From NCBI GenBank assembly GCA_937883755.1, contig CAKZYA010000049.1:1-64000 (forward strand): 64,000 nucleotides of DNA, written 5' to 3'. This document shows, in pieces, positions 14,651 through 60,662 of this stretch. The DNA is from an uncultured Flammeovirgaceae bacterium (lineage in GTDB: Bacteria; Bacteroidota; Bacteroidia; Cytophagales; Cyclobacteriaceae). Numbering within the stretch: the stretch's first letter is position 1; each line of letters starts with the position of its first letter. The notes below the pieces were generated by a model. It had not been told where the DNA came from. It saw only the letters and a list, made by a program, of their open reading frames with translations, and made no database searches. Position numbers and translations under genes: made by a program.

Positions 14651-14663
14651 AACCGTCATCTAC

Positions 14664-15805: not shown

Positions 15806-15811
15806 CACTAC

Positions 15812-16576: not shown

Positions 16577-16661
16577 CCAAACCTATACTTTATTGCTAAT
16601 TTTTCCGTAGTTTTTAAGACGGGCTTATTGTATTTAAAATTATCAATCAACGCTTAATTTT

Positions 16662-19600
16662 ATGTCAGCCGACTCTCACCTTCGTAGCGTTACCGAGCAA
16701 CTTCAGCAGTATAAGCGGAAGTATTACTTAAACAAACTGATCCGGGGAGGAATATTCTTCGGGGCTATTGTGCTCTCTGTATACTTACTATTTAATTCTA
16801 TCGAATACACCGCCCGGCTTAGTAGCCTTTGGCGAGGTATATTATTCTTTAGCTTTCTGTTACTCTTTCTCTTTATTCTGATCAAATGGGTAATTGATCC
16901 ACTCACCCGCTACTATAGCAATCAACGTCAGATCAGTGATGAAGAGGCAGCCCGACAAATTGGAACGTATTTTCCGGAAGTGCAGGATAAGCTGCTGAAC
17001 TTGATCCAACTCGATCGGGCAGGTAGTGGTAAGAGTGCTTTAGTAGCGGCTACTATTGCTCAAAAGACTAAACAGCTTTCGGTGGTTCGCTTTCCCATTG
17101 CTATTGATCTCCGTAAGAACCTTCGGCATCTGAGATATTTAGCAGTTCCGATAGCAGTTATGATGCTGGTACTTTTATTTGTGCCTCAGTTTTTTTCAGA
17201 AGGAACCCGCCGCATTGTAAACTTCAATAAAGAGTTCGTTCCCGAAGCACCGTTTTCATTTAATCTACAGAACGAGTCTTTCATTGCTTTCAAGAACGAA
17301 GATTTTTCTGTCACAGCTGATTTAGTAGGCAATGCTATCCCTGACAAAGTGTATCTGGTAGCTTCAGGGCGACGGTTTCGAATGGCTCCCAATGCCGAAG
17401 GTACGCTAGAATTTGTCTTTCAAAACATCCAACGCGATGCTCCTTTCTATATTGAAGCAGCGGGTTTTAATTCCAACTCCCACACTATTCGAGTAGTTGA
17501 TCGTCCTAACTTAAAGAACTTTAGCGTGTATCTCGATTACCCCGGTTATCTCTCGCGGGAAGACCAGCGATTAGACAACATCGGTAATCTGCAAGTGCCC
17601 GAAGGCACGAATGTCACTTGGCAATTTAATACGCTAGCGGCGGACAGTATGCAGATGAGGTTTGTGGAGCAGGAAGAAAGTTATCGGCTTGAGCAAGACT
17701 CCGAAGGCTCCTTCTCCTTAGAAAAACAGGCTCTCAAGTCTAGTACCTACCAAATTGACTTAGTGAATGAATATAGCAATAATAAGCAAGATATTCGCTA
17801 CTATCTCGATGTCATTCCTGATCAGACTCCACAGATCAGTCTGGAGCAATTTCAGGATACTACTCTTTACCAATTTTTAGTGTTAGGCGGAAATGTGTCG
17901 GACGATTACGGACTTACTCAGCTTTCCCTGTTTTATAAGTTTGAAGAATTGGAAGGAGAGGGGAACGAGTCAAAATATCAGCGACTGAACCTTCCCCTTG
18001 ATTCCCGACAAAACAATCAGAGTTACTACTATCAGTGGAATGTGGACACGCTTGGGCTGAACCCAGGAGAAAAAATTCGCTACTTCTTGAAGGTTTGGGA
18101 CAATGATGCAGTCAACGGATACAAGTCAGCTCAAACCTCTTCTTACGTATTTAGCATTCCTGATCGAGAAACCATTCGGGAAAACCTGGAAAAGTCGACG
18201 GCTGAGACGCAAAGCCAGATCAGTAAAACGGTACAGCAGGCAGAGCAATTAAAACAGGATATTGAGGAAGTAGAGAAGCGACTTAGAGGAAAGAAAGACC
18301 TGACTTGGCAAGATCAGAAAAAGTTGGAAGACATTATAAAACAGCGCGAGGAGCTGGAAAAACAGCTGGAACAACTGAAGGAGCAAAGCCAGTCGAGTAA
18401 AATGCAACGGGAGCAATTTGGTGAGCAGAGCGAAAAAATGAAGGAGCAGATTGATCAGTTGCAACAGCTTATGGACGAGTTACTTGACGAAGAGACCAAA
18501 AAGATGTATGAAGAACTTCAGAAGTTGCTAGACGAGCAGGTTGATATGGATAAAATGCGTGATCAGCTTCAGCAGATCAATGATCAGGAAGAAAACCTGG
18601 AAGAAGAACTAGAGCGAACGCTTGAGCTATTTAAACGAATGAAGTTTGATTCTAAGCTAGAGGATGTACAACAACAGATGGAGCAAAAGGCTGAAGAACA
18701 AGAAAAATTAGCTGAAGAAACTGAAAACAAAGAAAATAGCACGGAAGAATTAAGCGAACAACAAGAGCAGCTGAATCAGGAGTTTGATGAACTTCAGCAA
18801 GAAATGCAGGAGCTAAATGAGCTGAACCAGGATATGAAAAACCCAGCTCCTATGCAAGATATGAAACAGGAGCAGCAGCAAGCCCAACAAGAGCAACAAA
18901 AAGCTCAAGAGTCACTTGAGAAAAATCAGCGCAAGAAGGCACAAAAGTCTCAGAAGAATAGTGCCAAACAGATGCGGCAAATGGCACAAAAGCTTCAGCA
19001 GATGCAACAAAGCATGGAGATGGAAATGCTGCAAGAAAATATGGATAACCTTCGGAATATTCTAGACAATTTGTTGACGCTTTCCTTTGATCAGGAAACA
19101 GTAATGAAGGATTTCCGAGAGGTGAAACAGAATGACCCTCGCTTTATCGATCTCTCTCAGGAGCAACTGAAGCTTCGGGATGATGCTCAGATTATTGAAG
19201 ATAGTTTGCTGGCTTTGGCCGAGCGGGTATTCCAAATTCAGTCATTTGTAACCCGCGAGGTGAAGGACATGAATAAGTACATGGATGAGAGTATGGAATC
19301 ACTGCGGGAGCGGCAGCAGTACAAGGCCATTAGCCAGCAGCAATTTGCCATGACTTCTATCAATAATTTGGCACTTTTACTGAACGATGTACTGAGCCAG
19401 ATGCAACAGCAAATGGCTGATGCTATGGGAAATCCTCAGCAGAATCCAGGTGATACTCAGCAAAATATGAATCTGAGTGAATTGCAAAAGCAGCTTAATG
19501 AACAAATACAGAATTTGCAAAAAAGTGGTAAATCGGGTCGGGCTTTATCTGAAGAATTATCTAAACTTGCCCAGCAGCAGGAAAAGATTCGAAAGGCTTT

Positions 19601-45495: not shown

Positions 45496-46635
45496 ATGAG
45501 CACAATTTATAAAAACCTAACCTTAGGCGTTGTTGGCGGGGGGCAACTAGGTCGTATGCTAATTCAGGCGGCAATTGATCTGAATATTGATGTACATGTA
45601 CTCGACCCCGATGCTAACGCTCCTTGTCGGGATATTGCCACCCAATTTACTCAAGGTTCACTTACAGATGCCAACACCGTTTACGAATTTGCCCAAAGCT
45701 GCGACGTAATTACAATTGAAATTGAGAATGTGAGTACTGAGGCGTTACAAAAGCTGAGGGAAGAAGGAAAAAAGGTGTACCCCGAACCCAATGTAATCTC
45801 GCTCATTCAGGATAAGCGGAAGCAAAAGCAGTTTTACCAGCAACACGGCATTCCAACAGCACCCTTCGTACTCACCGAACAGCAATCTGACTTAGAAAAA
45901 CATCAAGATATGCTACCTGCCGTGCAAAAACTAGGGCGAGCTGGTTACGATGGTAGGGGCGTACAGAAAATCCAATCTCCCGAAGATATTTCCAAGGGGT
46001 TTGACCAGCCGGGTTTATTAGAAAGATTAATAGATTTTGAGAAAGAGTTAGCGGTAATTGTAGCGCGTAACCCATCGGGCGAAGTCAAAGCGTTTCCAGT
46101 GACCGAGATGGTGTTTCACCCCGAGCACAATCTGGTAGAATATCTCTTCGCTCCCGCCAACATTAGCACTGAGATTGCTCAGAAAGCTACTGATTTGGCG
46201 AAGAAGGTTATTGAAGAACTAAGTATGACCGGACTACTGGCAGTAGAAATGTTCCTGACTCGAGATGGGGAAATTCTGGTGAATGAAGTGGCACCTCGCC
46301 CTCACAACAGTGGCCACCATACTATTGAAGGTAATGCTACTTCTCAGTACGCGCAACACCTTCGGGCTATTCTGGATTTACCGCTGGGGTCAACCGATAC
46401 GCTCATTCCCACTGCTATGGTGAATTTGTTGGGCGAAGATGGCTACACCGGAGAAGCCCAGTACCAAGGTTTGGACAAAGTGTTGGCGGTAGAAGGTATC
46501 AATGTGCATCTGTACGGAAAAAAACTGACTAAACCCTTCCGAAAGATGGGACACGTAACCATTTTAGATCAGAATCTAGACCAATTGAAAGAGAAAGCAC
46601 AATTTGTTAAAGAACATTTAAAAGTAATCGCATGA
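45496..46635 (+). CDS. purK: N5-carboxyaminoimidazole ribonucleotide synthase
   Basis: An ATP-grasp enzyme that carboxylates AIR in purine synthesis using ATP and bicarbonate. Typical blocks are [16 protein letters not shown] at the N-terminus, [27 protein letters not shown], and [29 protein letters not shown]. 379 residues is normal. The last four bases overlap purE as ATGA, so the pair is translationally coupled. Confidence 0.96.
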
Positions 46636-47159
46636 GCAAACCCCAAATCGGCATCATCATGGGCAGTAAATCTGATCTACCTGTGATGCAGGAAGCCATC
46701 AAGTTTCTAGAAGACCAAGAAATTCCCCACGAAGTAAGTATCGTTTCAGCTCACCGTACGCCCCACCGGATGGTAAAGTATGCGGAAGGCGCCCGCAAGC
46801 GAGGTATCAAAGTGATTGTGGCTGGAGCCGGCGGAGCGGCTCATCTACCTGGAATGGTGGCTTCGCTAACCACTCTTCCCGTGATTGGAGTACCTATAAA
46901 ATCCAGTAATTCTATCGATGGCTGGGACTCGGTGCTTTCCATTTTGCAGATGCCGGGCGGAGTGCCCGTCGCTACCGTGGCACTTAACGGAGCCAAAAAT
47001 GCGGGGATTCTGGCGGCGCAAATTCTAGGAGCTACAGATAAAGCAATTGCTAAAAAGCTAGACGTCTATAAAAAAGAGATGAAGGAGAAAGTGGAAGAAT
47101 CAGCTGAGCAGGTGGAACGCTACGGTTACCGAGGGAACAAAATCGGCTTTGGTACGTAA
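46632..47159 (+). CDS. purE: N5-carboxyaminoimidazole ribonucleotide mutase
   Basis: The class I mutase moves the carboxyl group from N5-CAIR to CAIR. The sequence starts [17 protein letters not shown] and contains [10 protein letters not shown] with the catalytic-site His, [15 protein letters not shown] and [31 protein letters not shown]. 175 residues. It is coupled to purK by a four-base overlap. Identification is secure. Confidence 0.96.
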
Positions 47160-47330
47160 TTTTTCCATAGAGCAGTCGTTCATCATCTATACCTAATCTA
47201 CGATTGAATACCGCTATTCCATCACACTTTCCTGGGAAGAAGATTAAGTTAAGCAGATTCCTACAATTGCTGCGCGGAGTTGGTCTGTGCCAGAATGTAA
47301 TTTACAGGGCTATCCGAAATACCATTTGGA

Positions 47331-47497
47331 AAATCCCCCTAGCCCGTTCCGCGGCGGCCTCCTTTGGAAAAGGGGGAGAGTCCTCGATGCTTCTTTCCTC
47401 TTTTCCGGGTAAATTTTCTCGCTCAGACAAAAGTAGTTCTGAAATAACAGCTTTGCTTTTGGGGTTTCCCCCTTTGGAAAAGGGGGCTAGGGGGATT
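47331..47497. repeat. Inverted pair of CCCCCT...AGGGGG dispersed repeat elements
   Basis: The copy at 47466-47497 (CCCCCTTTGGAAAAGGGGGC) is a clean hairpin. The opposite copy at 47331-47378 carries an internal GC-rich insertion (GTTCCGCGGCGGCCT). The spacer is about 90 bases. The element is the same as at 34711-34834 and again sits directly before an exported-protein gene; translated, it makes an artificial N-terminus for that gene. Confidence 0.8.
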
Positions 47498-47530
47498 TAT
47501 AAAAGTTTTCAAGACAATATTAAGTCCCAT

Positions 47531-48847
47531 TTGGTCTACTGGCTCACATTGATATTAGCAGTTGGTGTCACCTCCTGCTCCTACGACCGCGAACGACAGG
47601 GCGCATCCCAGTCTCAAAAGCAAGAATCAGCTCCAGCTCAAAACGCTGCCGTAGAAGAGACACCCAAAAGTACGTACGCTGCTTCGGTATACTTAGAAAA
47701 TTCAGGGAGTATGGACGGTTACGTACGGGGGAATACCCAGTTTGAGGATGCCATCTACCGCATGCTGGTAGACGTGGGCTACTGGGCCGACACATTGCAA
47801 CTCTACTACATCAACTCCCGACCTATTCCTTATCAGCAGGATATTTCCCAGTTTATCAGTGATCTGGAACCTCAGGAATTTCAGCGGCGAGGAGGCAACC
47901 GTGGTAATAGCAACCTGAATGAAATTTTGCAAAAAGTAGCCGCTCAAGCCAGCCAGGGTGAAGTGAGTGCGCTGGTATCGGACTTTATTTTCTCGGTAAA
48001 AGGTGGGGATACCGAAGATTTGCTCAATAATCAAAAAATTAGCCTTTATAATACCTTTCGGCAACAACTGGGGCAATCGCCATTCAGTACCTTAGTTATC
48101 AAATTGCAGTCTGAATTTAGCGGGAGTTACTACGATAAAAATGATCGACCGATTTCACTCAGTAATACTATTCGCCCCTACTATATCTGGATGATGGGGC
48201 CGGAAGAGGCTATCCGGTCTTTACAGCAGAAGGTGCGTTTTTCGGCATTAGATGGTTATCAAACTAGTTACTTTTTATCGGCTGATCAGGAAGGGGGGGC
48301 GCCGTTTTATACCGTCCTCAGTAATACGATGACTACTGCCTCATTCCGCACTGATCGTGATTATTCCTCAGCCGACTACGTAAGAGGTATTGAGAAAGTA
48401 GAAATGGGACGAAGAGGTGATAGTAAAAAATTAAGCTTTGCCGTAGCCATAGACTTAGCCTCCATTCCAGCTGAAGAAAATTACGTAATAAGCCTTAGTA
48501 ATTATCGGGTAGAGGGCTATCAGTTGGATTCTATTGTCAGTATTAGTGAAGTAGCCCGGACTCACCCTCGCGATCAGTCTCTAATAGAAGGGAAAGCCAG
48601 TCATGTATTGGTCGTGAGCACGGAGCAAACCAATTATCCCGACTTGAAAATCTCTTTAGTAAAGCAGACACCCGCTTGGGTTCTGAATACTAGTTCTACG
48701 GATGACACCGGTATTCAGCGAAGTAAAACCCAGCAAACCCAAACTTTCGGATTACAGTACTTGGTAGAAGGGGTGGAAGAGGCGTACGAACAGGTATTTA
48801 ATAATCAGGAGGTTTACTTTACGGCGGAGGTTTCGGTGAAAAAGTAG
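47531..48847 (+). CDS. Lipoprotein with von Willebrand A-like MIDAS motif, 438 aa
   Basis: The frame is open from a TTG at 47204, but its first ~105 residues are encoded largely by an inverted repeat pair, so I start at the TTG at 47531. This yields a short lipoprotein signal with Cys16 (AVGVTSC). The mature protein opens with YAASVYLENSGSMDGYVRG. The VWA MIDAS motif DxSGSM is recognisable but its first Asp is Glu (ENSGSM, 56-61). A Rossmann-like VWA fold then follows by appearance (DTLQLYYINSRPIPY, EVSALVSDFIFSV), plus a large beta-rich C-terminal half of unknown type. Outer-membrane or periplasmic location is expected. It may belong with the tubulin-like/actin-like gene set 3.5 kb downstream. 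The start is uncertain. Confidence 0.65.
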   Translation: MVYWLTLILAVGVTSCSYDRERQGASQSQKQESAPAQNAAVEETPKSTYAASVYLENSGSMDGYVRGNTQFEDAIYRMLVDVGYWADTLQLYYINSRPIPYQQDISQFISDLEPQEFQRRGGNRGNSNLNEILQKVAAQASQGEVSALVSDFIFSVKGGDTEDLLNNQKISLYNTFRQQLGQSPFSTLVIKLQSEFSGSYYDKNDRPISLSNTIRPYYIWMMGPEEAIRSLQQKVRFSALDGYQTSYFLSADQEGGAPFYTVLSNTMTTASFRTDRDYSSADYVRGIEKVEMGRRGDSKKLSFAVAIDLASIPAEENYVISLSNYRVEGYQLDSIVSISEVARTHPRDQSLIEGKASHVLVVSTEQTNYPDLKISLVKQTPAWVLNTSSTDDTGIQRSKTQQTQTFGLQYLVEGVEEAYEQVFNNQEVYFTAEVSVKK

Positions 48848-48900
48848 TGTGTTAGGGTGTTTATGTGTTCGTGTATTCAAGTGTGTAAACTACGTGAACA
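48848..48900. repeat. GT-rich intergenic repeat
   Basis: GTGTGTTAGGGTGTTTATGT and the following bases resemble 60663-60720 and, inverted, 44861-44894. Low complexity makes the family assignment tentative. Confidence 0.5.
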
Positions 48901-48934
48901 CCTGGATACATATCTATATTTAAAGCACAGGTAT

Positions 48935-50071
48935 ATGAATATTGACATTATTGGAGCAGGTATCGGTGGATTGACTACGGCCATCGCGCTTCAAAAAAAG
49001 GGAATTAGGGCGAAAATATTGGAGCAAGCCAACGAGATTAAACCAGTTGGTGCAGGCATTATTCTGGCTAATAATGCCATGCAAGTTTATGATCACTTAG
49101 GGTTAAGAAAGGAGATCGAGGATGGCGGGAATCTAGTATCGTCTATGAATATTACTGATGCCAGCTTAAGCCGCATTTCCAGTATTGATTTGACCTACTT
49201 TGAGAAGAAACACGGGGTTAAGAACGTAGCCATTCATCGGGGCGAATTACAGAAGATCTTAGTTCAGCAACTGGATAAAAGTAAGGTAGAACTAGGCAAC
49301 GAACTTATCAAAGTAGAAAAGTTAGATTCGGCGTATCAACTAAAGTTTAGCGATGGAAGCTCAACTACTTCCGCAGTACTGCTAGGAGCGGATGGATTGA
49401 ACTCAAAAGTAAGAGAGTATTTATTTTCAGAAACTAAGATTCGTAGCGCCTATCAAATGTGTTGGCGAGGGGTAACTAATTTTACCCTACCGAAAAACTA
49501 TCGCAACGAGCTGAATGAGGCTTGGGGAAAAGGCGATAGGATTGGGTTCGTGCAAATATCTTCTGAAAAAGTGTATTGGTATGCGCTGAAAACGTTCCGC
49601 CAAGATCAATACTCAGTTGATGATTTGGCAATGCTTTTCCAGAATTATCACCCCATCGTAAAAGAAATCATTCGGAGCACACCTGTCGGAGCTATCCATA
49701 CGGCCACTATTTCTGATCTAGAGCCAATCAAGCATTGGCACCAAGATAATGTTTGTCTTATTGGTGATGCCGCTCACGCTACCACTCCCAATATGGGTCA
49801 GGGGGCTTGCCAAGCAATAGAAGATGCTTTTGTATTATCAGAATGCCTGGCTAAATATGGGTTGGATCACCCAGCCCAGGCTTTTTCGGAATATCAGCGA
49901 TTAAGAATGCCCAAAGCCCACCAAGTAGTAAATACGAGTTGGACGTTAGGCAAAGTAGCTCATTGGAAAAGCTCGCTAGCTATACAGCTCAGAAATCAGC
50001 TAATGAGAATGGTCCCTCCGAGTATCAACCGGAAGCAATCAGAAAAAATATTTCAACTAGCCTCCGTATAA
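48935..50071 (+). CDS. FAD-dependent monooxygenase (group A aromatic hydroxylase type)
   Basis: I use the ATG at 48935 since MNIDIIGAGIGGLTTAIAL is the canonical start; the frame upstream is encoded by the GT-rich repeat. The FAD-binding GxGxxG is at 7-12. The family's DG motif (LLGADGLNSKVREYL) and GD motif (VCLIGDAAHATTPNMGQGACQAIEDA) are clear. 378 residues. Such enzymes hydroxylate aromatic or quinone-like substrates with NAD(P)H and O2; the substrate is unknown. It ends one base before the DUF3995 gene, so both are probably cotranscribed. Confidence 0.92.
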   Translation: MNIDIIGAGIGGLTTAIALQKKGIRAKILEQANEIKPVGAGIILANNAMQVYDHLGLRKEIEDGGNLVSSMNITDASLSRISSIDLTYFEKKHGVKNVAIHRGELQKILVQQLDKSKVELGNELIKVEKLDSAYQLKFSDGSSTTSAVLLGADGLNSKVREYLFSETKIRSAYQMCWRGVTNFTLPKNYRNELNEAWGKGDRIGFVQISSEKVYWYALKTFRQDQYSVDDLAMLFQNYHPIVKEIIRSTPVGAIHTATISDLEPIKHWHQDNVCLIGDAAHATTPNMGQGACQAIEDAFVLSECLAKYGLDHPAQAFSEYQRLRMPKAHQVVNTSWTLGKVAHWKSSLAIQLRNQLMRMVPPSINRKQSEKIFQLASV

Positions 50072-50072
50072 T

Positions 50073-50498
50073 ATGAACGTACTGTCGGTAATCTTGTGTC
50101 TCATTTTCTTGGCTCTTGCCTTCTTGCATTTTAGCTGGGCGTTAGGTAACCAATGGGGTCTCAGTAGTACATTACCTACCAATGAGCAGGGAGAAAAAGT
50201 ATTAAATCCTGGGGCGGTTGATTGTATTGTTGTAGGGCTGGGGCTAACAGTCTTTGCATTATTCTACTTACTCCGAATGGAGATGATCGAGGTGGGTATT
50301 CCCGAATGGATACTTAAATACGGTGGTTGGCTTATTCCATCAATTTTCATCTTACGAGCTATCGGTGATTTTAAGTACGTTGGCCTATTCAAAAAAATTA
50401 GGCAAACTGAATTCGGAAAGCGGGATACTCAGTTCTACTCTCCCTTATGTCTGATGATTGGAACGGTGGGAATTATTATTCAACTGATAGAGATCTAG
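50073..50498 (+). CDS. DUF3995-family small membrane protein
   Basis: A 141-residue protein with four predicted membrane helices (about 3-24, 47-66, 81-98 and 118-138). The sequence LNPGAVDCIVVGLGL and RAIGDFKYVGLFKK match the DUF3995 family; nothing is known of its function. It starts one base after the monooxygenase stop. Confidence 0.85.
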   Translation: MNVLSVILCLIFLALAFLHFSWALGNQWGLSSTLPTNEQGEKVLNPGAVDCIVVGLGLTVFALFYLLRMEMIEVGIPEWILKYGGWLIPSIFILRAIGDFKYVGLFKKIRQTEFGKRDTQFYSPLCLMIGTVGIIIQLIEI

Positions 50499-50599: not shown

Positions 50600-51007
50600 A
50601 TGAACGATTTTTTTGCTCCTCTTTACGAAGGCTGGGGAGCCTTTTATCTGGACAGTTTTTCGGACGATCTGTACAACGAGCGGCTGTACATTCCTATTGG
50701 GTGGACATTACTATTGACTACGCTCGGGCTAGTTGCGATGTACTACTACGTCGTCAATCACCCCCGATTCAACCGATGGTTTCACTGGCTGGTCTATGTG
50801 TTAATAATCGGTATAATTAACTTTACGGTAGCCTACTTCATCAGCTACAACGAAATCAGCGTACTTTACGAGGAAGATCCCTACAGCTCGGAATACTATA
50901 CCTTCAGTTTGGTGAATTTCCTCTGGGCATTGGCATTTTGCTTGCTATTTTCATTTGGTCTTCGTTGGTGGAGTACCAATAGCTCGACAACTCCTGTTCC
51001 TCAGTAA
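50600..51007 (+). CDS. Small three-helix membrane protein, 135 aa
   Basis: The product has three predicted membrane segments (about 29-51, 63-85 and 108-128) and short acidic loops (YEEDPYSSEYY). I do not recognise a family. The gene stands 101 bases after the DUF3995 gene and 90 bases before the tubulin-like gene, on the same strand. It could be the first member of the cytoskeleton-like operon or an unrelated single gene. An overlapping frame one base offset is a shadow. Confidence 0.7.
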   Translation: MNDFFAPLYEGWGAFYLDSFSDDLYNERLYIPIGWTLLLTTLGLVAMYYYVVNHPRFNRWFHWLVYVLIIGIINFTVAYFISYNEISVLYEEDPYSSEYYTFSLVNFLWALAFCLLFSFGLRWWSTNSSTTPVPQ

Positions 51008-51097
51008 ACAATATCAATTGACAGGTAACAATGGATAATTGATAATGATCCAGTCTAAACTATCCACTTTCCATTGTCCATTATAAACTAACATTCT

Positions 51098-52567
51098 ATG
51101 GCAAGGCTTTTTATTTTTGGTATCGGGGGTACTGGCGTTCGCGTCATCAAATCGCTAACCATGCTGCTGGCTTCGGGGGTGAAGATGAACACTACCGAAG
51201 TCATCCCAATCATTGTCGACCCTCATCAGAGTAATCAGGATTTGAAGCGTACACTGAACCTATTGGAAGATTATCAGGCAGTGCGCGACAAGCGTGATCC
51301 GGGCCGCGAAGGGTTTTTCCAAACCAATATCAGTACGCTACAGCGGCTCACCGGAAGTCAGAATATTGGTAGCACGTTCTCCTTTAAGTTGAAAAATGTA
51401 CAAAATGAGCAGTTTAAGGATTATATTAACTTCGGTAGTCTAGATGAGAAAAATAAGTCGTTGGTGAGCTTATTATTTTCAGAGAAAAATCTGGCGACTG
51501 AAATGGACATTGGTTTCGTGGGGAATCCCAATATTGGCAGTGTAGTGCTCAATCAGTTTAAAGACTCCGGCGAGTTTGTCAATTTTGCATCCAACTTTTC
51601 GCAGAACGACCGGATTTTCATCATTAGCTCCATCTTCGGTGGTACTGGGGCGGCAGGCTTTCCTACCATCCTGAAAAATATTCGTAATGCCCAACCTCCC
51701 TTGCCGAATCATGAGTGGATTCGTAACGCTAAGATGGGGGCGGTCACGCTACTGCCTTACTTCGGGGTAGCTCCCGATCCGGCCAGTAAAATTGATAAAG
51801 CGACGTTTATTTCTAAGTCCAAAGCTGCTCTAGCCTACTACGAGACTAATGTAAGCGGTAATAACTCAGTGAACGCGCTGTATTATCTGGGAGATGACCG
51901 TACCAAAGACTATCCGAACGACCCGGGCGAGCATGGCCAACGTAACGATGCCCACTTTATGGAAGTGGCGGCAGCTCTTTCGGTGGTTGACTTTATGAAT
52001 ATGCCGGATACGGCTTTAGGATCAGAAAACGGACGAGCCGTACAACCAATTTACAAGGAATTCGGCATCAAGCGCGATGAAGAATTGGTTAGCTTCACTC
52101 AACTGGGTGACGAAACCCAAGCTCAGATCAAAACACCGCTTACGCAGTACTGGTACTTTTATTTGTACCTACGCGATAAGCTGAGCCAAACCTTGGGCAA
52201 ACAACCCTGGACTAATCGCAAGAAACCACCCATTAATAAGGCCTTTACGTACGGCTCGTTTTACCAGAACCACCTTAGTCCGTTTAATGAGCAGTTCGGC
52301 ACTTGGTTGAAGGAGTTACGTCAGAACAAACGAGCATTTGCCCCCTTTTCGCTAAGTGAAAAAACTTCGTCGGGGTTATTTGACACGGTGCGAGGTATAG
52401 AACCTCAGCGCCACTGGAGTCCGTTTGCCCGGGACAATTATGTATTGTACGATGAGGAACTAAACCGAGCCGAACGAAACGTAGGTAGCCTTCCCGTAGA
52501 ACAGAAGTTTATGCGTATCTTCTACCAAGCTACCCACTCTTTAGTAAACCGTAAGTTTGATTTTTAA
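51098..52567 (+). CDS. Tubulin/FtsZ-like GTPase-fold protein (Tubulin_2-like), 489 aa
   Basis: The protein begins MARLFIFGIGGTGVRVIKSL, a Gly-rich nucleotide-binding loop in the position of the first FtsZ loop. It has a tubulin-signature-like loop IFGGTGAAG at residues 179-187 (FtsZ and tubulin: GGTGSG), preceded by strand residues RIFIISS. This two-loop pattern is that of the 'tubulin-like' Pfam family I recall as Tubulin_2. The C-terminal half (about 320-489) is unfamiliar. There is no signal peptide or membrane helix, so it is cytoplasmic. It is followed after 11 bases by the actin/Hsp70-like gene and heads a six-gene string. GTP binding and polymerisation are inferred, not shown. Confidence 0.78.
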   Translation: MARLFIFGIGGTGVRVIKSLTMLLASGVKMNTTEVIPIIVDPHQSNQDLKRTLNLLEDYQAVRDKRDPGREGFFQTNISTLQRLTGSQNIGSTFSFKLKNVQNEQFKDYINFGSLDEKNKSLVSLLFSEKNLATEMDIGFVGNPNIGSVVLNQFKDSGEFVNFASNFSQNDRIFIISSIFGGTGAAGFPTILKNIRNAQPPLPNHEWIRNAKMGAVTLLPYFGVAPDPASKIDKATFISKSKAALAYYETNVSGNNSVNALYYLGDDRTKDYPNDPGEHGQRNDAHFMEVAAALSVVDFMNMPDTALGSENGRAVQPIYKEFGIKRDEELVSFTQLGDETQAQIKTPLTQYWYFYLYLRDKLSQTLGKQPWTNRKKPPINKAFTYGSFYQNHLSPFNEQFGTWLKELRQNKRAFAPFSLSEKTSSGLFDTVRGIEPQRHWSPFARDNYVLYDEELNRAERNVGSLPVEQKFMRIFYQATHSLVNRKFDF

Positions 52568-52578
52568 CTAAAGTAAGC

Positions 52579-55500
52579 ATGCCCAAAGTATTAACCTATC
52601 ATAACCTAACCAACGGCGAGCACTGGTTTAAAGCGGATGCTTACGGTCGGCGCCAGATTGATGCCATTAGCGATCCCGAAGGCGGAAATACGGAGCAACC
52701 GCCTACTTCTATTCCTAGTCCATTTGCCCAGATTGACCTGGTACGGACGGCTTTCCGAAACATTGTAAAGGATGAGGAGCTGCGCGGAACGACGCTGGAT
52801 CGCAAGCTAGTATCTGACTGTCTAGATGTGGCTGAACTGCTGTTTAATGCCGATTATATCAAGGGGAAATTACAGATTGTGGCCTGGGACCCGGATACGG
52901 ATTTAAAAAATCTGTTACAATCCAGTAATGAGGCGCACCGCCGATTGGGTGAAGTACTAGAGTTGTACCTAAAGCAGGATGCGGATACATACAACTTTGA
53001 TGAGATTAAGCGACTGTATATCTTTTACTATGATTATAAGGTAGTGGGAGGCACCTCTCCGGCATCTTTATTTTTTGCCTCGTCCAACGACCTAAGTTTT
53101 GTAGACGTCCCTCTTGACAAAAATAAACTGTTTAGCGGTTCGTACCCTCCTCTCTACGAGCGGGGTGAAGCCTTTCAGCTTTATCTCTACGGACTACTAG
53201 AGTTTTTCCGATCCAGTTCGGGCGGTAATTTTCGCGATTGTTTTCCCGAGGTAGCTGAGTATCTGGCGAAAAACTTAAAAGTCTTAGATAGGAAAAACCC
53301 TGAATTATACCAACGGATTAATGAATTCAAGAATAAAAGCTCTTTTGAAGAACAGTTCGCCGAACTCGATACCGGAAGTGCGGGTGATACCGTAGAACTT
53401 TTGAGCTACCCACTTCGCAAGAAAAAGGTTGAGCAAGGTTCAGTAGCTGAACAGAGTGATTTTGTCATTCAATCCAGTAAATACCAAGAAGCTGTCAAGC
53501 CGTTGGTACTGCAAAACCAGTTCAATAAACCCTACACTTACGTTAGTGAGCCTTGGAATAACGATCAGGAAGTGCCCTATCATGTGGCCGAACCACTAGC
53601 GCAGCGTACTTTGCCAGGGCAAGTTATCCAGTATCCGTACCTAACGGTTAGCGACTTTTTGGAACCCTACCTAATTAAGCTGGTCTACCCGATCAACCGG
53701 AGGAAGTACTTTGATGGGCATTGGGTCGGACAGGAGCAAGATGCTGGCTACGTGCTGCCCATCAAACCCTTTTACCTTCAGTTCTTCAATTTAGCTGAAT
53801 TACAGGGAACGGTAGTCGGGGGAAAGAATACCATTGATATGGAGCCACTGGCAGCGGGAGGCGTGCGAGTAACCCTGCGCATTCCGGTGAAACAGGGCTT
53901 TGTGACTTTTGAGCGAATTTATACTCCAGGAGTGACCGAAGGCGAAGTGCCACCGCCCGACGAAGGCCGAAATAAAGGCGTGATTGTCGAGCATCAGTTT
54001 GGCGTAACGCTGTATCCGTTCATCAAAACGGGGAATAAAGTAGAAAATACGCACTACCGGGTGCAGCTTATCGATCGGGATGTAAGTCCGCACACTCGCC
54101 ACCACCAGTACGATTTACAGTTTTTCGGCGAAAGTAGCACTCAGCCTATTGACCATCAGGCGGAAAAGCAGCGCAGCGATAAGTGCGCCGACGACCGCGC
54201 TAGCACTCAGTACTACGTGTTGCAGCAAGAATTTGACTACATGCAGTTGAAAACGGGTACTGCGCAAGGAATCGTTATTCCTAAATTTCCGGCCTACAGC
54301 GGTGGTAATGATACTTATACTTTTGCGATTGACTTCGGAACTACCAATACCCATATTGAGTACAAAGTGGGTAACGGAAACCCTCGTCCATTCGATATTA
54401 CTGAAGAAGACGTACAGATTGCTACTCTGCACGATCCGGCCTTTGCCCAGGCGAATCCTGATTTCGGAGGAAGCGGGGCTACGCTCATTCGCGATCTGAT
54501 TCCGCAGGAGTTTTTGCCCCGCTATATTGGACAGCAGTTTGAGTTCCGCTTTCCGCAGCGTACCGTCATTGGCGAAAACCACAACCTGAATTTGGATACG
54601 TCTACCTACGTGCTGTCGGATTTTAATATTCCGTTTGTTTACGAGAAGTATCCTGTTCAGAATAATACCCGGGTGACTACGGACCTGAAGTGGTCGAACT
54701 ACACTCGTAATCAGGAAGATAAGCGTCGGGTAGAAGCCTTCTTTGAAAACCTGCTCTTCCTCATTCGCTCTAAGGTACTGATGAATAACGGCGATCTGAA
54801 AAAGACCAAACTGATTTGGTTTTATCCGTCCAGTATGCTACCCAACCGTCGTAATAGTCTGGAAGCCACTTGGCGGGATTTATATCATCGCTATATCACT
54901 GCCGAGCGCGATCCGCAGAAATTATCCGAAAGTATTGCACCCTTCTACTTTTATAAAGAGCGATTGGGCAAGAGTGCAGCGGATAAGCCTTCAGTGGGTA
55001 TCGATATTGGCGGAGGTACTACCGACATTGTAATCTTCCAGAATAATCAGCCGACGGTGCTTACCTCGTTTCGGTTTGCGGCCAACGCTATTTTTGGTGA
55101 TAGTTTTCACGGTTCGGCGGCTATCAATGGTTTTATTCGTCGCTATGCGGATGAAATTGGTCGGTTGCTACAGGAAAATCGACAGAATGAGTTATTGCGG
55201 GTTTACAACGCTATTCTAGAAGAGCAACGATCACAGGATATTGTTGCTTTCTTTTTCTCACTGGAAGAGAATAAGCATATCAAAGAACAGCAAATCCCAA
55301 TTTCCTTCCACGCTATGCTGAAGGAAGATGAAGATTTCAAAATCGTCTTCATTGTCTTCTACACGGCGCTTATCTATCACTTAGCCAAACTGATGCGGGC
55401 GAAAGGACTGGAAATGCCTCGCCATATTCTGTTCAGTGGCCGGGGTTCTAAGGTGGTAAACATTATTGATCCCAGTCCTCGGCTCAGTAGTTTGAACACT

Positions 55501-56013
55501 CTGACCCAATTAGTGTTCAAGCACATCTACCAAGATGAAGCCGACGCTATCGAATTGGAGCAGTACCCTGAACCTAAAGAAATCACTTGTAAAGGGGGTT
55601 TACTAAGCGGTGTAGACGTAGATATTGATCAAATTAAGACGGTACTGTTAGGAACGGGTGAGGGAGTGATGATTCCTGAACAATCAATAAAATACCCGAA
55701 CCTGACGGATGAAATGTTGCAGCAGGTGTTAGGCGAGGTAGATGAATTTATGCAGTTACTTTTCACTATTCATCAAGAATACAACTTCGCTCATCACTTC
55801 GGAGTGAATCCGTCGCACCTGAGTAGCTACCAAATGATGCTGAAAGAAGATCTGATGGAGTACCTAAAATCAGGGCAACAACTAAAGATGAAAGAGCTAG
55901 CTGGAAACCAGGATGTAAACGTCGAGGAAACCCTATTTTTCTATCCACTCACCGGAGCCCTGAACCGGATGGCATTCAAAATTGCCACCGAACTGACGGA
56001 AGAGTATAATTGA
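52579..56013 (+). CDS. Large actin/Hsp70-type ATPase protein, 1144 aa
   Basis: Residues ~1-575 form a unique N-terminal region with no family I know, predicted mixed alpha/beta. From residue 580 a complete actin/Hsp70 ATPase fold follows: phosphate-1 loop FAIDFGTTNTH (582-592), phosphate-2 loop VGIDIGGGTTDIVIF (806-820) and adenosine motif HILFSGRGSK (949-958). The spacing is normal for the superfamily. It is not a chaperone DnaK: the substrate-binding domain is absent. The C-terminal ~120 residues are helical. SrfB-like virulence proteins and other large Hsp70-like proteins are possible relatives. It lies 11 bases after the tubulin-like gene and 3 before the dehydrogenase gene. Confidence 0.85.
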   Translation: MPKVLTYHNLTNGEHWFKADAYGRRQIDAISDPEGGNTEQPPTSIPSPFAQIDLVRTAFRNIVKDEELRGTTLDRKLVSDCLDVAELLFNADYIKGKLQIVAWDPDTDLKNLLQSSNEAHRRLGEVLELYLKQDADTYNFDEIKRLYIFYYDYKVVGGTSPASLFFASSNDLSFVDVPLDKNKLFSGSYPPLYERGEAFQLYLYGLLEFFRSSSGGNFRDCFPEVAEYLAKNLKVLDRKNPELYQRINEFKNKSSFEEQFAELDTGSAGDTVELLSYPLRKKKVEQGSVAEQSDFVIQSSKYQEAVKPLVLQNQFNKPYTYVSEPWNNDQEVPYHVAEPLAQRTLPGQVIQYPYLTVSDFLEPYLIKLVYPINRRKYFDGHWVGQEQDAGYVLPIKPFYLQFFNLAELQGTVVGGKNTIDMEPLAAGGVRVTLRIPVKQGFVTFERIYTPGVTEGEVPPPDEGRNKGVIVEHQFGVTLYPFIKTGNKVENTHYRVQLIDRDVSPHTRHHQYDLQFFGESSTQPIDHQAEKQRSDKCADDRASTQYYVLQQEFDYMQLKTGTAQGIVIPKFPAYSGGNDTYTFAIDFGTTNTHIEYKVGNGNPRPFDITEEDVQIATLHDPAFAQANPDFGGSGATLIRDLIPQEFLPRYIGQQFEFRFPQRTVIGENHNLNLDTSTYVLSDFNIPFVYEKYPVQNNTRVTTDLKWSNYTRNQEDKRRVEAFFENLLFLIRSKVLMNNGDLKKTKLIWFYPSSMLPNRRNSLEATWRDLYHRYITAERDPQKLSESIAPFYFYKERLGKSAADKPSVGIDIGGGTTDIVIFQNNQPTVLTSFRFAANAIFGDSFHGSAAINGFIRRYADEIGRLLQENRQNELLRVYNAILEEQRSQDIVAFFFSLEENKHIKEQQIPISFHAMLKEDEDFKIVFIVFYTALIYHLAKLMRAKGLEMPRHILFSGRGSKVVNIIDPSPRLSSLNTLTQLVFKHIYQDEADAIELEQYPEPKEITCKGGLLSGVDVDIDQIKTVLLGTGEGVMIPEQSIKYPNLTDEMLQQVLGEVDEFMQLLFTIHQEYNFAHHFGVNPSHLSSYQMMLKEDLMEYLKSGQQLKMKELAGNQDVNVEETLFFYPLTGALNRMAFKIATELTEEYN

Positions 56014-56016
56014 TCT

Positions 56017-57159
56017 ATGCAACAACTCACATTTCTAGGTAAGAACCGAGTAGATTGGCGGGAAGTAGCGGAACCTACGTTACAGAGTGAGCGAGAGGCA
56101 ATTGTACGTCCGTTTGTCGCCGCTCGTTGCGATGGGGATAGCCTTTTCCTCTTTCACAATTATCGTAAAGCGATGCCTCTAGGAGTAAACCTCCACTATT
56201 TAGACCCGAAAGTGTTGGATGCGTTTGGAAACCCTCCATTACAGCCTCCGTTCGGTGTAGGGCATGAAGCAATTGGCGAAGTAACCGAAATAGGTTCCGC
56301 CGTAAAGAATGTTAAGCAGGGCGACGTAGTGGTAGTTCCCTGGGCAATTTCTTGCGGTAAGTGCCAGCCGTGTTATCAGCAGTTACCCGCTAATTGTAGT
56401 AGAAATGGTAAAAAGACCCTTATTTCTGCCTACGGCTTTGGCGCGGGAACGGGTGGTTTCGGTGGTATGGTCAGTGATAAAATCTGGATTCCTTTTGCCG
56501 ATGCTATGCTGGTGAAAATACCGGAGGGCATTGATCCAGTCCACTGTGCTTCGTTGAGCGACAACATTAGTGATGCGTACCGATCAGTAGGACCACAGTT
56601 AGATAAATTCCCGGAGGCACCCGTGCTTATTTTTGGTGGAAATGCCAAAAGTATTGGACTGTACGCAGCCGCGCTGGCGGTAGCTAAAGGATCGGTTCAG
56701 GTAGATTATGTAGATGATAATTTAGAGCGACTGACTATTGCCGCCCGAGTGGGGGCTAATCCCATTGAACTAAGAAAAAGGCAAAAGGTAGATACGCTCA
56801 GTGGTGCATTACGGAAAGACGGCTATCCGATTGCGGTAGATGCCAGTGGTTCAGTTTCAAAGCTAGCTTTTGCTATACAAAACTTAGCTCCCGGTGGTAC
56901 GGCTACTGGAGTAGCGTTTTACGTGAAGAAAAGAAACTCACTACCTTTGTGGGAGATGTACCTGAAGAGTGCCACGCTACACGTCGGTATTTCACATTCG
57001 CGCCGGGATATTCCTAATGTGTTTCCGTTAATTCAAAGTAAGAAGTTTCAGCCGGAAAAAATTACTACTATGCTAACTGATTGGTCGGATGCCCCGAAAG
57101 CTTATTTAGAACAGACTACTAAACTAGTTGTATTTAGAGAGCGGCTTAACCAAAACTAA
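56017..57159 (+). CDS. Zinc-dependent medium-chain alcohol dehydrogenase-like protein
   Basis: A 380-residue MDR dehydrogenase. The catalytic-zinc region has Cys in AARCDGDSL and GHE in GVGHEAIGEV; the structural zinc site is CGKCQPCYQQLPANC, with four Cys. The Rossmann fold follows (VLIFGGNAKSIGLYAAALA). It starts three bases after the actin-like gene's stop codon and ends eight bases before the next gene, so it is an integral part of the operon, although a small-molecule dehydrogenase is unexpected there. Substrate unknown. Confidence 0.9.
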   Translation: MQQLTFLGKNRVDWREVAEPTLQSEREAIVRPFVAARCDGDSLFLFHNYRKAMPLGVNLHYLDPKVLDAFGNPPLQPPFGVGHEAIGEVTEIGSAVKNVKQGDVVVVPWAISCGKCQPCYQQLPANCSRNGKKTLISAYGFGAGTGGFGGMVSDKIWIPFADAMLVKIPEGIDPVHCASLSDNISDAYRSVGPQLDKFPEAPVLIFGGNAKSIGLYAAALAVAKGSVQVDYVDDNLERLTIAARVGANPIELRKRQKVDTLSGALRKDGYPIAVDASGSVSKLAFAIQNLAPGGTATGVAFYVKKRNSLPLWEMYLKSATLHVGISHSRRDIPNVFPLIQSKKFQPEKITTMLTDWSDAPKAYLEQTTKLVVFRERLNQN

Positions 57160-57167
57160 CGATACTC

Positions 57168-58436
57168 ATGATTCGCAGAGCCCTACTACTACTTATATTC
57201 TATTGTCTGTTACAACCTGCCCAAGCTACCGTTATTCGAGAGCAGTTTTCCCAAACAGTGGACTATATAGGTTGGCAGATTATGGATGCCTATATGCAGG
57301 ATTACCTGAGCATCCGGCCTAACCAAGCTGCTGAGCGAGTGGGTTACGAAGCCTTTCAGCAGGAATTTAGCCAAGCTAATTATAGTATTGGGCAACCGCC
57401 TAACAGTGAAGCCGTCGCTACCTTCTTAGAAAATAACGATTGGCGTAATGCCAGCACCAATCTATACCGTCGGATTATCGGCATCAAGGAAATGTATCGC
57501 AATGAGTGGACGGAGGATGAGGCTATCAATTTTCTACAGCAGCAAATCCGAAATATTAGCCTTCAGCCACTGCGGGTAGCCAATGAAGATGACTACAACC
57601 AATTGAAGCAGGCCAAAGCTTTATTAATTCAAGAGATAAAGCAGTATCTCACTTCAGAATCATCAGCTCCAACTTCAGAAGAATCTAATCCTGAGCCGCA
57701 AACAGTAACGGAGCAGACTACTTCGCCAACTAACCCTCCTGCGATAGCATTAGATCAAACGAATGAAGCACTACGTGAGAATCTTGCATTTTTGGATAGC
57801 CAATATTACAAACTGGCACTTTTGGTCATAATCGTATTATTGCTAGGATTATTGTGGTATACTCTGCGTTTGCTTCGGAAGCAAGATGTCCGCATCGACC
57901 GCCACACCAAGCGGATTGAAGAACTAACCGCTCGGCAGCTCCAAAAAAGTACTCCCTACGTTACCCGTGAAGAAGTAGCTCAATTGAAAAATCGGGTGAA
58001 GGAAGCCGAGGCCCAAGTAACCGCCTTACGGAAACAATTACCTCAGAAAAAAGAAATAACAAAACCGCGTTTCGGTCCGAATAACCCTCCGGCTCCAGTT
58101 ACAAAATCCTATTACTTATCTACGCCCAACAGCGACGGTACATTTCCAGCGGGTTCCATGTCTGCCCAATTCCGCCCGTCGGCTTCCATCTACCACTTCG
58201 AGGTGCTGGAGCAGAACGGAGAAAATACGGCTACTTTTACCGTAGCCAATAATGCCGATGCCATGAAGGATGCCTTAAGTTCTCCGGGTAGCTATCTGGA
58301 ACCTGTTTGTGAGAGCGAGAATTCCTACTTTCCGGGAGCGCAGCGCATTGTGAATGTAGAACCAGGGAAAGCGACCCGGGAAGGCGACCAGTGGGTGGTA
58401 ACTCCCGAAGATAAAGCTCTGATTCGTTATGAGTGA
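57168..58436 (+). CDS. Exported/membrane coiled-coil protein with C-terminal domain, 422 aa
   Basis: The layout is a signal peptide (1-20, LLQPAQA), a ~190-residue periplasmic helical region, a membrane helix at 216-237 (LALLVIIVLLLGLLWYTLRLL), a coiled coil (about 240-295) on the cytoplasmic side, and a compact C-terminal domain (312-422). That domain starts YYLSTPNSDGTFPAGSMSA and has PVCESENSYFPGAQRIVNVEPG. I believe similar C-terminal domains recur in other Bacteroidota proteins, with no known role. The gene overlaps the next by eight bases. It is a candidate anchor linking periplasm to the cytoplasmic tubulin-like and actin-like proteins; this is inference. Confidence 0.75.
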   Translation: MIRRALLLLIFYCLLQPAQATVIREQFSQTVDYIGWQIMDAYMQDYLSIRPNQAAERVGYEAFQQEFSQANYSIGQPPNSEAVATFLENNDWRNASTNLYRRIIGIKEMYRNEWTEDEAINFLQQQIRNISLQPLRVANEDDYNQLKQAKALLIQEIKQYLTSESSAPTSEESNPEPQTVTEQTTSPTNPPAIALDQTNEALRENLAFLDSQYYKLALLVIIVLLLGLLWYTLRLLRKQDVRIDRHTKRIEELTARQLQKSTPYVTREEVAQLKNRVKEAEAQVTALRKQLPQKKEITKPRFGPNNPPAPVTKSYYLSTPNSDGTFPAGSMSAQFRPSASIYHFEVLEQNGENTATFTVANNADAMKDALSSPGSYLEPVCESENSYFPGAQRIVNVEPGKATREGDQWVVTPEDKALIRYE

Positions 58437-59880
58437 TTTGGCTACGTTTGAAACCATTCTACTAATCTTTTCTATCGGAGTACAAGTATGGTTTTTCTGG
58501 CAGGCGTGGCAGCGAATGAGGCAATTTTCTCATTGGATACCTTCGGAGGAAGCTATCAAAATAGTACCTAAGCGCATTCCACTTGCAGAACTAACCCAAA
58601 CCAATACTGATCAGTTACTAGAGCGATTTTACCAAGGGAAACTGCGATTTGCTGAAGGCATCAAACTACCGATGCTGCAAGCCGAAAATTATAGCTCTGC
58701 TGCCCGCTACCGACTTTTTTATGCGCTTAATCGCTACTTGCTCAAGAGCCGAGGAGTAGTACTAGACTTCGCCCTAATTCAAAATCTGGTAGCTCGGCAA
58801 GAGATGCAAATTCGGCAGGGATTGAAACAAAGAGCTTGGTTGCCTCTACTGATTGGATTAGGGTTTACCATCATTGGGTTAGGAGTTAGTGCCTTCTTCT
58901 TACCGAATCTTCCCAGTGAGATTGTTACAAACGCTATCTATTTAAGTACTGCCGTAATATTTTTTAGCGGGGTTAAAATTATCGTGCTAGCGACTATCAT
59001 CGGCGCATTATTAAGTTTGACACTTCTGGGCTGGCAGCTCCCAACTGTTCAGCGAAAAGCTCTTCAGCGGAAAAATGGATTTCTAACGCTTATTCAAACC
59101 GAATGGTTACCTCAACTGGCGCAGGATACTACACAGACACTGCAAACTTTGCAAGGGCAACTCAGTGGCTTTCAGCAGAATTTTATGGATAATCTAAGTA
59201 CGTTAGAAGGACTACTCAGCAGAAATTACGAAACACTGAAGGCGCAGGAGAAAATTGCCCAGGTATTGCAGGAAATTGATATTATGGAGTTGGCAAAGGC
59301 CAATCTGGAAATATTTCAATCGTTAAACGACAGTGCTAAGGAGCTGACCCAGTTTAAAGATTATCTTACCCAGACCAACCAGATGGTCGATAGTACATCG
59401 GGGCTAACCGAAAAGCTCAACCAGTTTTTGTACCGTACGCAGGAAGTGGAAAACGTGCTGGGAGAAATTCGGGGGATTGCCCAAAAAAGTGAAAAGCTCC
59501 AGCAATTCTTACGCTCTCATTTCACTGAGTTAGAGCAGCGTGGTCAGGTGATTAATGATGCCGTAATCAAGGTAGACCACGTGCTGGATAAGAGCTTACA
59601 AGAACTTCTGGAGCATACCCAAACGCGCATCCGCACCATTCGCGATCTAGCTATTCAGGAGGAAAGTCGCCTACGAAAAGCCTTTGACGACAATCAGCAC
59701 GCAGTAGGGAAGCTAGCACTTATGGAGCCTCTGAACCAAAACATTAAGGCGTTAAAAGAGCAAAATGATCAGCAACAATCAGCAATACTCGAACAACTAA
59801 AGTTGCTAAATCAACAAATTTCTTCAAATAAGTCAGGTGCGGGAACAAATTTTTTTAAAAAACTCTGGCGAGGTGAATAA
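58429..59880 (+). CDS. Membrane protein with long cytoplasmic coiled coil, 483 aa
   Basis: One membrane helix lies near the N-terminus (about 8-27), and two more at 138-158 and 182-202. The latter pair (LIGLGFTIIGLGVSAFF, then FFSGVKIIVLATIIGALLSL) has the Gly-rich look of MotA/ExbB/ZorA-type channel helices, but I see no conserved proton-carrying residue and treat the resemblance as weak. The C-terminal ~260 residues are a long coiled coil (AQVLQEIDIMELAKANLEIF, LEQRGQVINDAVIKVDHVL). It overlaps the upstream gene by eight bases and precedes the protease gene. A membrane scaffold role is likely. Confidence 0.75.
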   Translation: MSDLATFETILLIFSIGVQVWFFWQAWQRMRQFSHWIPSEEAIKIVPKRIPLAELTQTNTDQLLERFYQGKLRFAEGIKLPMLQAENYSSAARYRLFYALNRYLLKSRGVVLDFALIQNLVARQEMQIRQGLKQRAWLPLLIGLGFTIIGLGVSAFFLPNLPSEIVTNAIYLSTAVIFFSGVKIIVLATIIGALLSLTLLGWQLPTVQRKALQRKNGFLTLIQTEWLPQLAQDTTQTLQTLQGQLSGFQQNFMDNLSTLEGLLSRNYETLKAQEKIAQVLQEIDIMELAKANLEIFQSLNDSAKELTQFKDYLTQTNQMVDSTSGLTEKLNQFLYRTQEVENVLGEIRGIAQKSEKLQQFLRSHFTELEQRGQVINDAVIKVDHVLDKSLQELLEHTQTRIRTIRDLAIQEESRLRKAFDDNQHAVGKLALMEPLNQNIKALKEQNDQQQSAILEQLKLLNQQISSNKSGAGTNFFKKLWRGE

Positions 59881-59909
59881 TCTCCGGCATAGAAATCGTT
59901 ATATTAGTA

Positions 59910-60662
59910 ATGATGAGAAGTATTATTTGGTCTCTTGCCTTCGCCATACTGCTCTCAGGTTGTAATAGTTGCTCTCGTTCTGCCCGTAAAATGAAGGCGC
60001 AACGCACTTCCTTGCAAAAAATGGCCACTGACGATGTAGCTCCCGATACGGTGGCTACGTACAGCCCCCCCGTTTCATCTACCGAGAGAAAGAAAAAATC
60101 CCTCACGGATATTGTAGAAATTGCCGAACCTAGCGTCTTTGTAGTGTACACTTACAACCGTAGCGGTAAGCGAATTGGTCAAGGAACCGGGTTCTTTATT
60201 GAGAAAAACGGAATTGCCGTCAGTAACCACCATGTTTTTGAGAAAGGCGAAAGCTGGAAGATCAAAACATTTGCTGGGAACGAATTTGGCGTGAAACGCA
60301 TCGTTAAACAAAGTGAAAAGTACGACTACGTTATTTTTCAAGTGGAAAAAACCGAAGAAATACAGCCGCTTCCTTTATCGGCATCGTTACCCCGCAAGGG
60401 TGAAGATATTTTTGTATTGGGCAATCCTAAGGGGCTGGAAAGCACCGTGTCGCGAGGTATTGTTTCCTCTATCCGCAAGTACAAAGGCCAGCGAGATGCG
60501 CTCATTCAAATGGATGCCGCTATCTCTCCGGGTAGCAGTGGCAGTCCGGTTATGAACAGCAAAGGCGAAGTGGTAGGTATTGCTACTATGCAGGTGAAGC
60601 AGTGTGAAAACTGTAACTTCGCTTTTAACATTGCACTACTGCAAGATGATACTTCGTTGTAA
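59910..60662 (+). CDS. Trypsin-like serine protease lipoprotein
   Basis: A lipoprotein signal (LLSGC, Cys18) is followed by a linker and a S1/DegP-like protease domain from about residue 66. The catalytic triad is His108 (SNHHVF), Asp139 (YDYVIF) and Ser210 (PGSSGSP). There is no PDZ domain. Length 250 residues. It lies 29 bases after the coiled-coil membrane protein gene and closes the operon. It could process or monitor periplasmic parts of the complex; this is inference from position. Confidence 0.88.
   Translation: MMRSIIWSLAFAILLSGCNSCSRSARKMKAQRTSLQKMATDDVAPDTVATYSPPVSSTERKKKSLTDIVEIAEPSVFVVYTYNRSGKRIGQGTGFFIEKNGIAVSNHHVFEKGESWKIKTFAGNEFGVKRIVKQSEKYDYVIFQVEKTEEIQPLPLSASLPRKGEDIFVLGNPKGLESTVSRGIVSSIRKYKGQRDALIQMDAAISPGSSGSPVMNSKGEVVGIATMQVKQCENCNFAFNIALLQDDTSL

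Follow-up and report, generated by a model that had tools for sequence, protein, structure and literature searches.

We analyzed a 64,000-nt stretch of DNA from an uncultured Flammeovirgaceae bacterium (contig CAKZYA010000049.1, positions 1 to 64,000; hereafter the window), whose genome has a completeness of 99.3% (tool estimate), and focused on an operon that combines a tubulin-like GTPase gene with an actin-like ATPase gene. All genes of the set, and the passengers among them, lie on the forward (+) strand. The operon had been noticed in the initial annotation of this stretch, and comparison with related loci confirmed it as a conserved set. As judged from the predicted proteins, the conserved core comprises a VWA-like lipoprotein, a small membrane protein, the tubulin-like GTPase, the actin-like ATPase and a receptor-like membrane protein. 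Clustering of all open reading frames (ORFs; script-made calls, not annotation) gave a recurrent order in which these five genes, as just named, are followed by a ZorA-like and a ZorB-like gene and then by hydrolases.

Related loci (L-numbers; G-numbers denote genomes) were drawn from a collection of species genomes, in which at least 551 of 599 pattern-matching stretches encode relatives; the best 80 were taken for analysis, so that locus counts lean toward close relatives, and 4 additional loci came from viral contigs. Core, motor and cargo counts refer to the 66 of 92 loci whose available sequence includes 3 kb ahead of the tubulin-like gene and 8.5 kb behind it (“well-covered”). Among these, the VWA-like lipoprotein was found in 62, the small membrane protein (of the same or two sister clusters) in 62, the actin-like protein in 63, a recognized version of the receptor-like protein in 50, the ZorA-like subunit in 46 and the ZorB-like subunit in 41.

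The tubulin-like GTPase of the core (51098..52567, 489 amino acids (aa)) carries both glycine-rich loops, T1 and T4, and has the tubulin GTPase fold in its predicted structure. The Pfam Tubulin_2 profile matched 42 of 45 homologs at E ≤ 0.01, with the window protein itself scoring 22.6 against a cut-off of 27. The best match of the family profile in the PDB was CetZ (E 0.23), and comparison with the genome’s own FtsZ aligned the T4 loop only (28 columns, probability 0.3%). In the model of the 489-aa window protein, helices from residue 338 on reach at most 28 residues, part of this at low confidence, and an extended coiled coil with a helical C-terminal domain was not found.

The adjoining core gene (52579..56013) encodes an actin/Hsp70-type ATPase of 1144 aa, with ATPase motifs in residues 585-957. 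Its phosphate-1, phosphate-2 and adenosine motifs occur in order at 585, 809 and 952, and its N-terminal ~570 aa had no assigned fold. Three strict ATP-site patterns were present in 58/90 family members (fragments counted), and the key Asp and Gly of motifs 1 and 2 were invariant in 34 aligned domains, themselves selected by the first motif. Profile comparisons yielded weak matches to MreB, FtsA and Hsp70 in the PDB, and a probability of 44.7% against DnaK over a single motif. In the window’s nearest relative, L018, the actin-like gene is read as two ORFs (11483-14914), through a frameshift or an assembly error.

The two NTPase genes are nearly inseparable. The actin-like gene directly follows the tubulin-like gene in 84/92 loci, with a median gap of 5 bases, and the actin-like family is present in 87/92. 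In three of the five loci lacking the family (L100, L016 and L101), a large partner protein matched the actin-like profile, and in L015 a large partner was detected by BLAST only. Likewise, on a cyanobacterial plasmid (L108), next after the tubulin-like gene comes one for a large protein that the actin-like profile matches at E 2e-20, and a VWA-family protein (E 3e-13) is encoded nearby. This co-inheritance suggests that the tubulin-like and actin-like NTPases form one machine. The initial annotation had proposed a membrane-associated machine using both cytoskeletal types, with parts on both sides of the inner membrane; the conserved, membrane-linked pair and the exported parts support this in part, and it is co-inheritance that points to the unity of the machine. 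It had also named two outcomes that would count against the proposal, namely tubulin-like loops that do not give the fold and a gene order confined to one strain; the fold is predicted, and the order is widespread among related bacteria.

The first core gene encodes the VWA-like exported lipoprotein (47204..48847), with homologs in 82/91 related loci. Against five ordinary VWA domains encoded by the window genome, a profile of this family reached 86% probability (E 5e-6), compared with 0.3% for a control profile; its members had no Pfam VWA match, no Pfam family in common and no PDB match. An ExSGSM motif is present in 51/84 members, and in all 51 of these Glu replaces the first Asp of the classic metal site, so metal binding is doubtful. 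In the window ORF, residue 125 is the last of a lipobox-like VTSC; translation probably begins later than at the listed TTG, with the true start probably near 47490-47540. The sequence CCTTTGGAAAAGGGGG is present twice at 47361-47486, in the 5’ part of this ORF (seen by eye; a search for repeats of at least 25 bases did not list it), and given the later start, the original leader may have been lost to repeat DNA. The small membrane protein of the core (50600..51007, 135 aa) has homologs in 59/91 loci by BLAST with the window protein as query.

The receptor-like protein (57168..58436) consists of a signal peptide, a variable exported part, a transmembrane segment at about residue 215, a coiled coil and a conserved C-terminal domain, with signal peptide and topology assigned by eye and hydropathy. 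We compared conservation in 17 close pairs of loci, hand-picked from the tree, one of which had no recognized receptor. In 13 of the remaining 16 pairs the receptor-like protein was the least conserved core protein, the VWA protein being lower in the other 3. Furthermore, the ratio of nonsynonymous to synonymous substitution rates (dN/dS) was 0.32 and 0.34 for the receptor-like protein in two pairs, versus 0.03-0.15 for other core proteins.

Downstream, the window encodes a divergent MotA/TolQ/ExbB (ZorA)-type subunit with a long coiled coil (58429..59880), which aligns with 34 homologs. Of the 35 aligned members, 21 match Pfam MotA_ExbB at E ≤ 0.1, the window copy not among them, and some match ZorA models at E ≤ 0.01; taken alone, the window copy had no match in Pfam, PADLOC, MotA_ExbB or ZorA model scans. 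In relatives, a ZorB-like gene directly follows. All 34 members of its family match PADLOC ZorB1 models (E ≤ 0.1, best 5e-17), 25/34 have an OmpA-type peptidoglycan-binding domain and 25/34 a MotB_plug domain (E ≤ 0.1), and the family matches solved ZorB structures at E 5e-15 and 7e-8. The channel-Asp motif FW.S[YF].D is kept in 47/48 ZorB-like proteins. Both motor subunits occur in 41/66 well-covered loci, ZorB alone is absent in 5/66, and neither subunit is present in 20/66, Spirosoma included.

In the window genome, no ZorB-like or MotB_plug gene was found (best E 0.117; a second search gave none). In G522, which belongs to the same family, ZorB and the tubulin-like gene share a contig, about 6.4 kb apart, and among 10 genomes of the order selected from carriers of the tubulin-like gene, 7 had ZorB, 6 of these within ~10 kb of that gene. 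Since the window genome is without ZorB while G522 keeps it, the motor appears to be an attached module, partly lost in the window lineage. By these searches, the window carries a variant without a complete ZorAB-type motor, with ZorB gone and the channel subunit diverged.

Behind the core lies a variable cargo of hydrolases, comprising aspartic-protease, trypsin-like, SNase, endonuclease/exonuclease/phosphatase (EEP) and NucA-type proteins, among others (one representative per kind was scanned). At least one of these five kinds occurs in 41/66 loci. A lipobox-like pattern was detected in 23/28 aspartic-protease, 11/14 trypsin-like and 10/15 SNase proteins. In the window this position is held by a trypsin-like exported lipoprotein (59910..60662; Trypsin_2, 1.5e-28), with His, Asp and Ser motifs SNHHV at 105, YDYVI at 138 and GSSGSP at 208; its homologs occur in 13/91 loci, and different hydrolases stand at the same place in others. 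A PADLOC scan of 8 window proteins gave matches only for this protease and, as one weak KwaB match (E 0.003), for the receptor-like protein.

The distribution of the set is patchy. The tubulin-like gene was found in 8/296 genomes of the phylum and in 90/291 genomes of the order (the window genome counted in both), the latter from 25/116 genera, and Bacteroidota account for 73 of 78 grouped rows of named loci. The operon is also at least sometimes mobile. The DNA of L024 (Cryomorpha, Cryomorphaceae) and L028 (Halomarinibacterium, Flavobacteriaceae) is ~80% alike over 8092-19416 only, out of 21 kb compared. The matching stretch opens a short way inside the VWA gene and closes where the SNase gene ends, so that it covers the operon save for a gap in the receptor gene; in at least one case, therefore, the operon was transferred between families as one cassette. 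In addition, L067 (1-8000) and L100 (1-8100) share the same mobile-looking element (6.3 kb at 95.7%), with genes resembling a relaxase and an integrase by eye, followed at the same place by two different versions of the tubulin-actin system. L067 is filed under Acetatifactor and may be misbinned, because its protein sits beside Parabacteroides. In the window, purK and purE lie directly upstream (45496-47159), and the system occupies the same place in L018, L019 and L020; it has therefore been inherited with its site in this clade.

Some loci depart from the common arrangement. Downstream of the tubulin-like gene in L015, L016 and L100, a second version of the set was seen. Its actin-like partner diverges strongly, it includes small proteins resembling TerD on visual inspection, and motor genes were not seen among its ORFs examined. 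In L086 (Spirosoma telluris, ~10001-11466), three VWA-family, two tubulin-like and two actin-like ORFs stand in a row, as duplicated or split genes. Several window genes within or beside the operon are passengers. An FAD monooxygenase and a 141-aa membrane protein (48857..50498) separate the VWA gene from the rest; we rejected both as parts of the system, each being found in 1/91 loci, the nearest relative L018, and in L019 and L020 neither lies between the corresponding genes. A zinc-binding dehydrogenase (56017..57159; ADH_N/ADH_zinc_N), which the initial annotation had counted as a component, was dropped, with a homolog in 0/91 related loci. Of the parts first listed, the tubulin-like and actin-like proteins stood, and the upstream VWA-like lipoprotein had been missed, as had the ZorB-like subunit and the other hydrolases of relatives; both membrane coiled-coil proteins were found again, the MotA/ZorA nature of the second having been overlooked. 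The SrfB family, considered as a further candidate, was not supported, as no such match appeared among Pfam families at E ≤ 1. Finally, as anecdotal observations by eye, McrC- and McrB-like genes lie near the operon on the opposite strand in L107 (Prevotella sp. oral taxon 299, 5561-8369), and Cas9-like and HsdM-like neighbors occur in L022 and L023.

Three kinds of described system invite comparison. Zorya defence needs the Asp of ZorB, peptidoglycan binding by ZorB and the tail of ZorA (Mariano et al. 2025, PMC11890865, accessible text). The relatives’ ZorA-like channel subunit with its long coiled-coil tail, their ZorB-like subunit with channel Asp and OmpA-type domain, and the nucleases among the cargo resemble Zorya. 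The tubulin-like, actin-like, VWA-like and receptor-like core does not, nor do hydrolases that mostly look exported, the window copy without ZorB and with a divergent ZorA, or the motorless loci. Makarova and Koonin (2010, PMC2875224) predicted that FtsZl1, together with VWA, GTPase and OmpA proteins, forms systems for membrane remodelling; according to the accessible part of that paper, most members have an extended coiled coil and a helical C-terminal domain after the FtsZ-like domain, and a link to a P-loop GTPase or kinase is frequent, not universal. Our set shares with these operons a divergent tubulin-like protein, a linked VWA protein in most loci and an OmpA-type protein in many relatives. 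It differs in that the window tubulin-like protein lacks the long coiled-coil extension, the OmpA-type protein is a MotB-like motor subunit, and a large actin-like partner is present, whereas neither an actin-like partner nor a motor is named in the accessible part of PMC2875224. A linked P-loop GTPase or kinase was not found among 10 window proteins (Pfam, E ≤ 1). The species covered there include Bacteroides caccae, so the present set may partly stand in the supplementary operon tables of that work.

Kaur et al. (2020, PMC7159879) described DO-GTPase systems, for which they predicted a role in conflict and whose hallmark is a TRAFAC GTPase together with GAP1; these, too, employ tubulin or HSP70 alongside VWA and membrane parts. 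In the accessible text of that paper, tubulin and HSP70 are non-overlapping themes in one section, having been named together in an earlier sentence, whereas in the present set the tubulin-like and actin-like genes are nearly always together. Neither a TRAFAC GTPase nor GAP1 was matched in 10 window proteins (Pfam, E ≤ 1; for GAP1, provided that Pfam has models of it). A 2023 survey (PMC9871819) passed over the Tubulin_2 group, calling it sparse and divergent, as far as its accessible text goes. The present combination was not described in the literature searched, which consisted mainly of titles and abstract starts, with most subscription papers, preprints and supplements outside its scope. 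By predicted composition, the set would work partly like Zorya and resembles the FtsZl1-VWA operons, and for each of the two, defining features that we tested are absent.

The set is thus real, conserved and at least sometimes mobile. Because of its variable nuclease and protease cargo, cassette transfer, the swap of versions on one element, patchy distribution, fast-evolving receptor and motor homology, our best, though tentative, reading (probability about 0.45) is a horizontally spread, envelope-spanning conflict machine, probably anti-phage, along Zorya-like lines. The exported part of the receptor and the VWA lipoprotein would serve as periplasmic sensors of damage or of an intruder, and the signal would pass to a tubulin-actin assembly, switched by nucleotides, on the cytoplasmic side. 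Where an ion-driven motor is present, its ZorB-like subunit would tether it to peptidoglycan, and it would act through its long cytoplasmic tail; once activated, the machine would switch on hydrolases in the periplasm, and these would cleave incoming DNA or protein. Several observations weigh against such a conflict machine. The lipobox-like pattern is scarce in EEP (2/7) and NucA-type (2/5) cargo, so these two kinds may or may not be exported, and no ZorC, ZorD or ZorE match was obtained by PADLOC among the 8 window proteins (relatives’ cargo was not scanned for these). Fast evolution is not the receptor’s alone, as trypsin-like cargo reached a dN/dS of 0.24 in one pair; in Spirosoma pairs the exported receptor part was not the least conserved, and exported proteins commonly evolve fast for unremarkable reasons. 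The loci with neither motor subunit belong on this side too, as does L069 (a Thermochlorobacter bin, 10001-11239), where a tubulin-like gene in two ORFs is followed by a ZorA-like gene with no actin-like gene between. Finally, the stable genomic place of the set in Spirosoma and its frequency in g6, a further genus of the order, fit a housekeeping role, and PADLOC gave no defence-island signal among the 113 nearest neighbor genes in a scan that had no control set: 26 models were matched at 1e-10, each of the 25 listed by one or two genes, and probably the same few genes lie behind them.

The stable Spirosoma place and the neighbor scan also favor an FtsZl1-type machine for membrane remodelling or envelope maintenance, in which tubulin-like and actin-like polymers under the inner membrane, together with VWA and peptidoglycan-binding parts, would give the envelope its shape, mend it or produce vesicles, as an accessory and not an immune function. 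The Tubulin_2 matches, the linked VWA gene and the OmpA-type domain of most ZorB-like proteins are the same three elements as in the accessible account of Makarova and Koonin (2010). This possibility deserves serious weight, yet within the window’s own family 20 genomes without the set stand beside two with it (the window genome and G522), the cassette moved between families, and exchangeable nucleases are hard to account for. We consider conflict slightly more likely than remodelling, and unproven. The frequency of complete MotAB-type subunit pairs and the concentration in Bacteroidota would also suit a motor-powered apparatus serving surface motility, transport or cell contact and comparable to the gliding/type 9 secretion motor, in which tubulin and actin would provide tracks or scaffolds; we find this improbable, as nearly a third of well-covered loci (Spirosoma among them) keep the core without the motor, which is thus not the core’s purpose, and no recurrent secretion or adhesin family appeared among the clusters listed, with no search aimed at such families. 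For the window copy only, the missing ZorB (kept in G522), three passenger genes and the split actin-like gene of L018 could indicate a decaying remnant that has gained passengers and retained little function. The chance of this seems slim, given that all window core frames are open and that, between the window and L018, dN is 0.035 for the tubulin-like and 0.055 for the actin-like gene (737 codons) with dS near 2, a saturated value that makes the comparison a rough sign of selection only; the receptor, channel subunit and small membrane protein yielded no dS. Returning to the conflict reading, its boldest form is a new class of immune or envelope-guard machine, in which a near-obligate pair of tubulin-type GTPase and actin-type ATPase would be triggered from the periplasm by a fast-evolving transmembrane receptor and a VWA lipoprotein, could be acted on by a peptidoglycan-tethered, ion-driven motor, and would fire exchangeable exported nucleases and proteases; this more specific claim we hold to be rather unlikely.

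In bacteria, relatives of tubulin and of actin have mostly been described in separate systems or in the context of cell division. Their near-constant side-by-side pairing in Bacteroidota, and with divergent partners on a cyanobacterial plasmid, offers a simple setting in which to ask whether both cytoskeletal families act as one switch, and the question is testable in cultured environmental carriers such as Spirosoma, Pedobacter, Chitinophaga and Kordia. If the motor link is true, it would widen the Zorya idea, making the ZorAB-like motor a general adaptor that feeds envelope damage to different cytoplasmic switches. Should the immune or envelope-guard reading hold, this would be, to our knowledge, the first known machine in which a rotary motor is linked with both families of cytoskeletal proteins.

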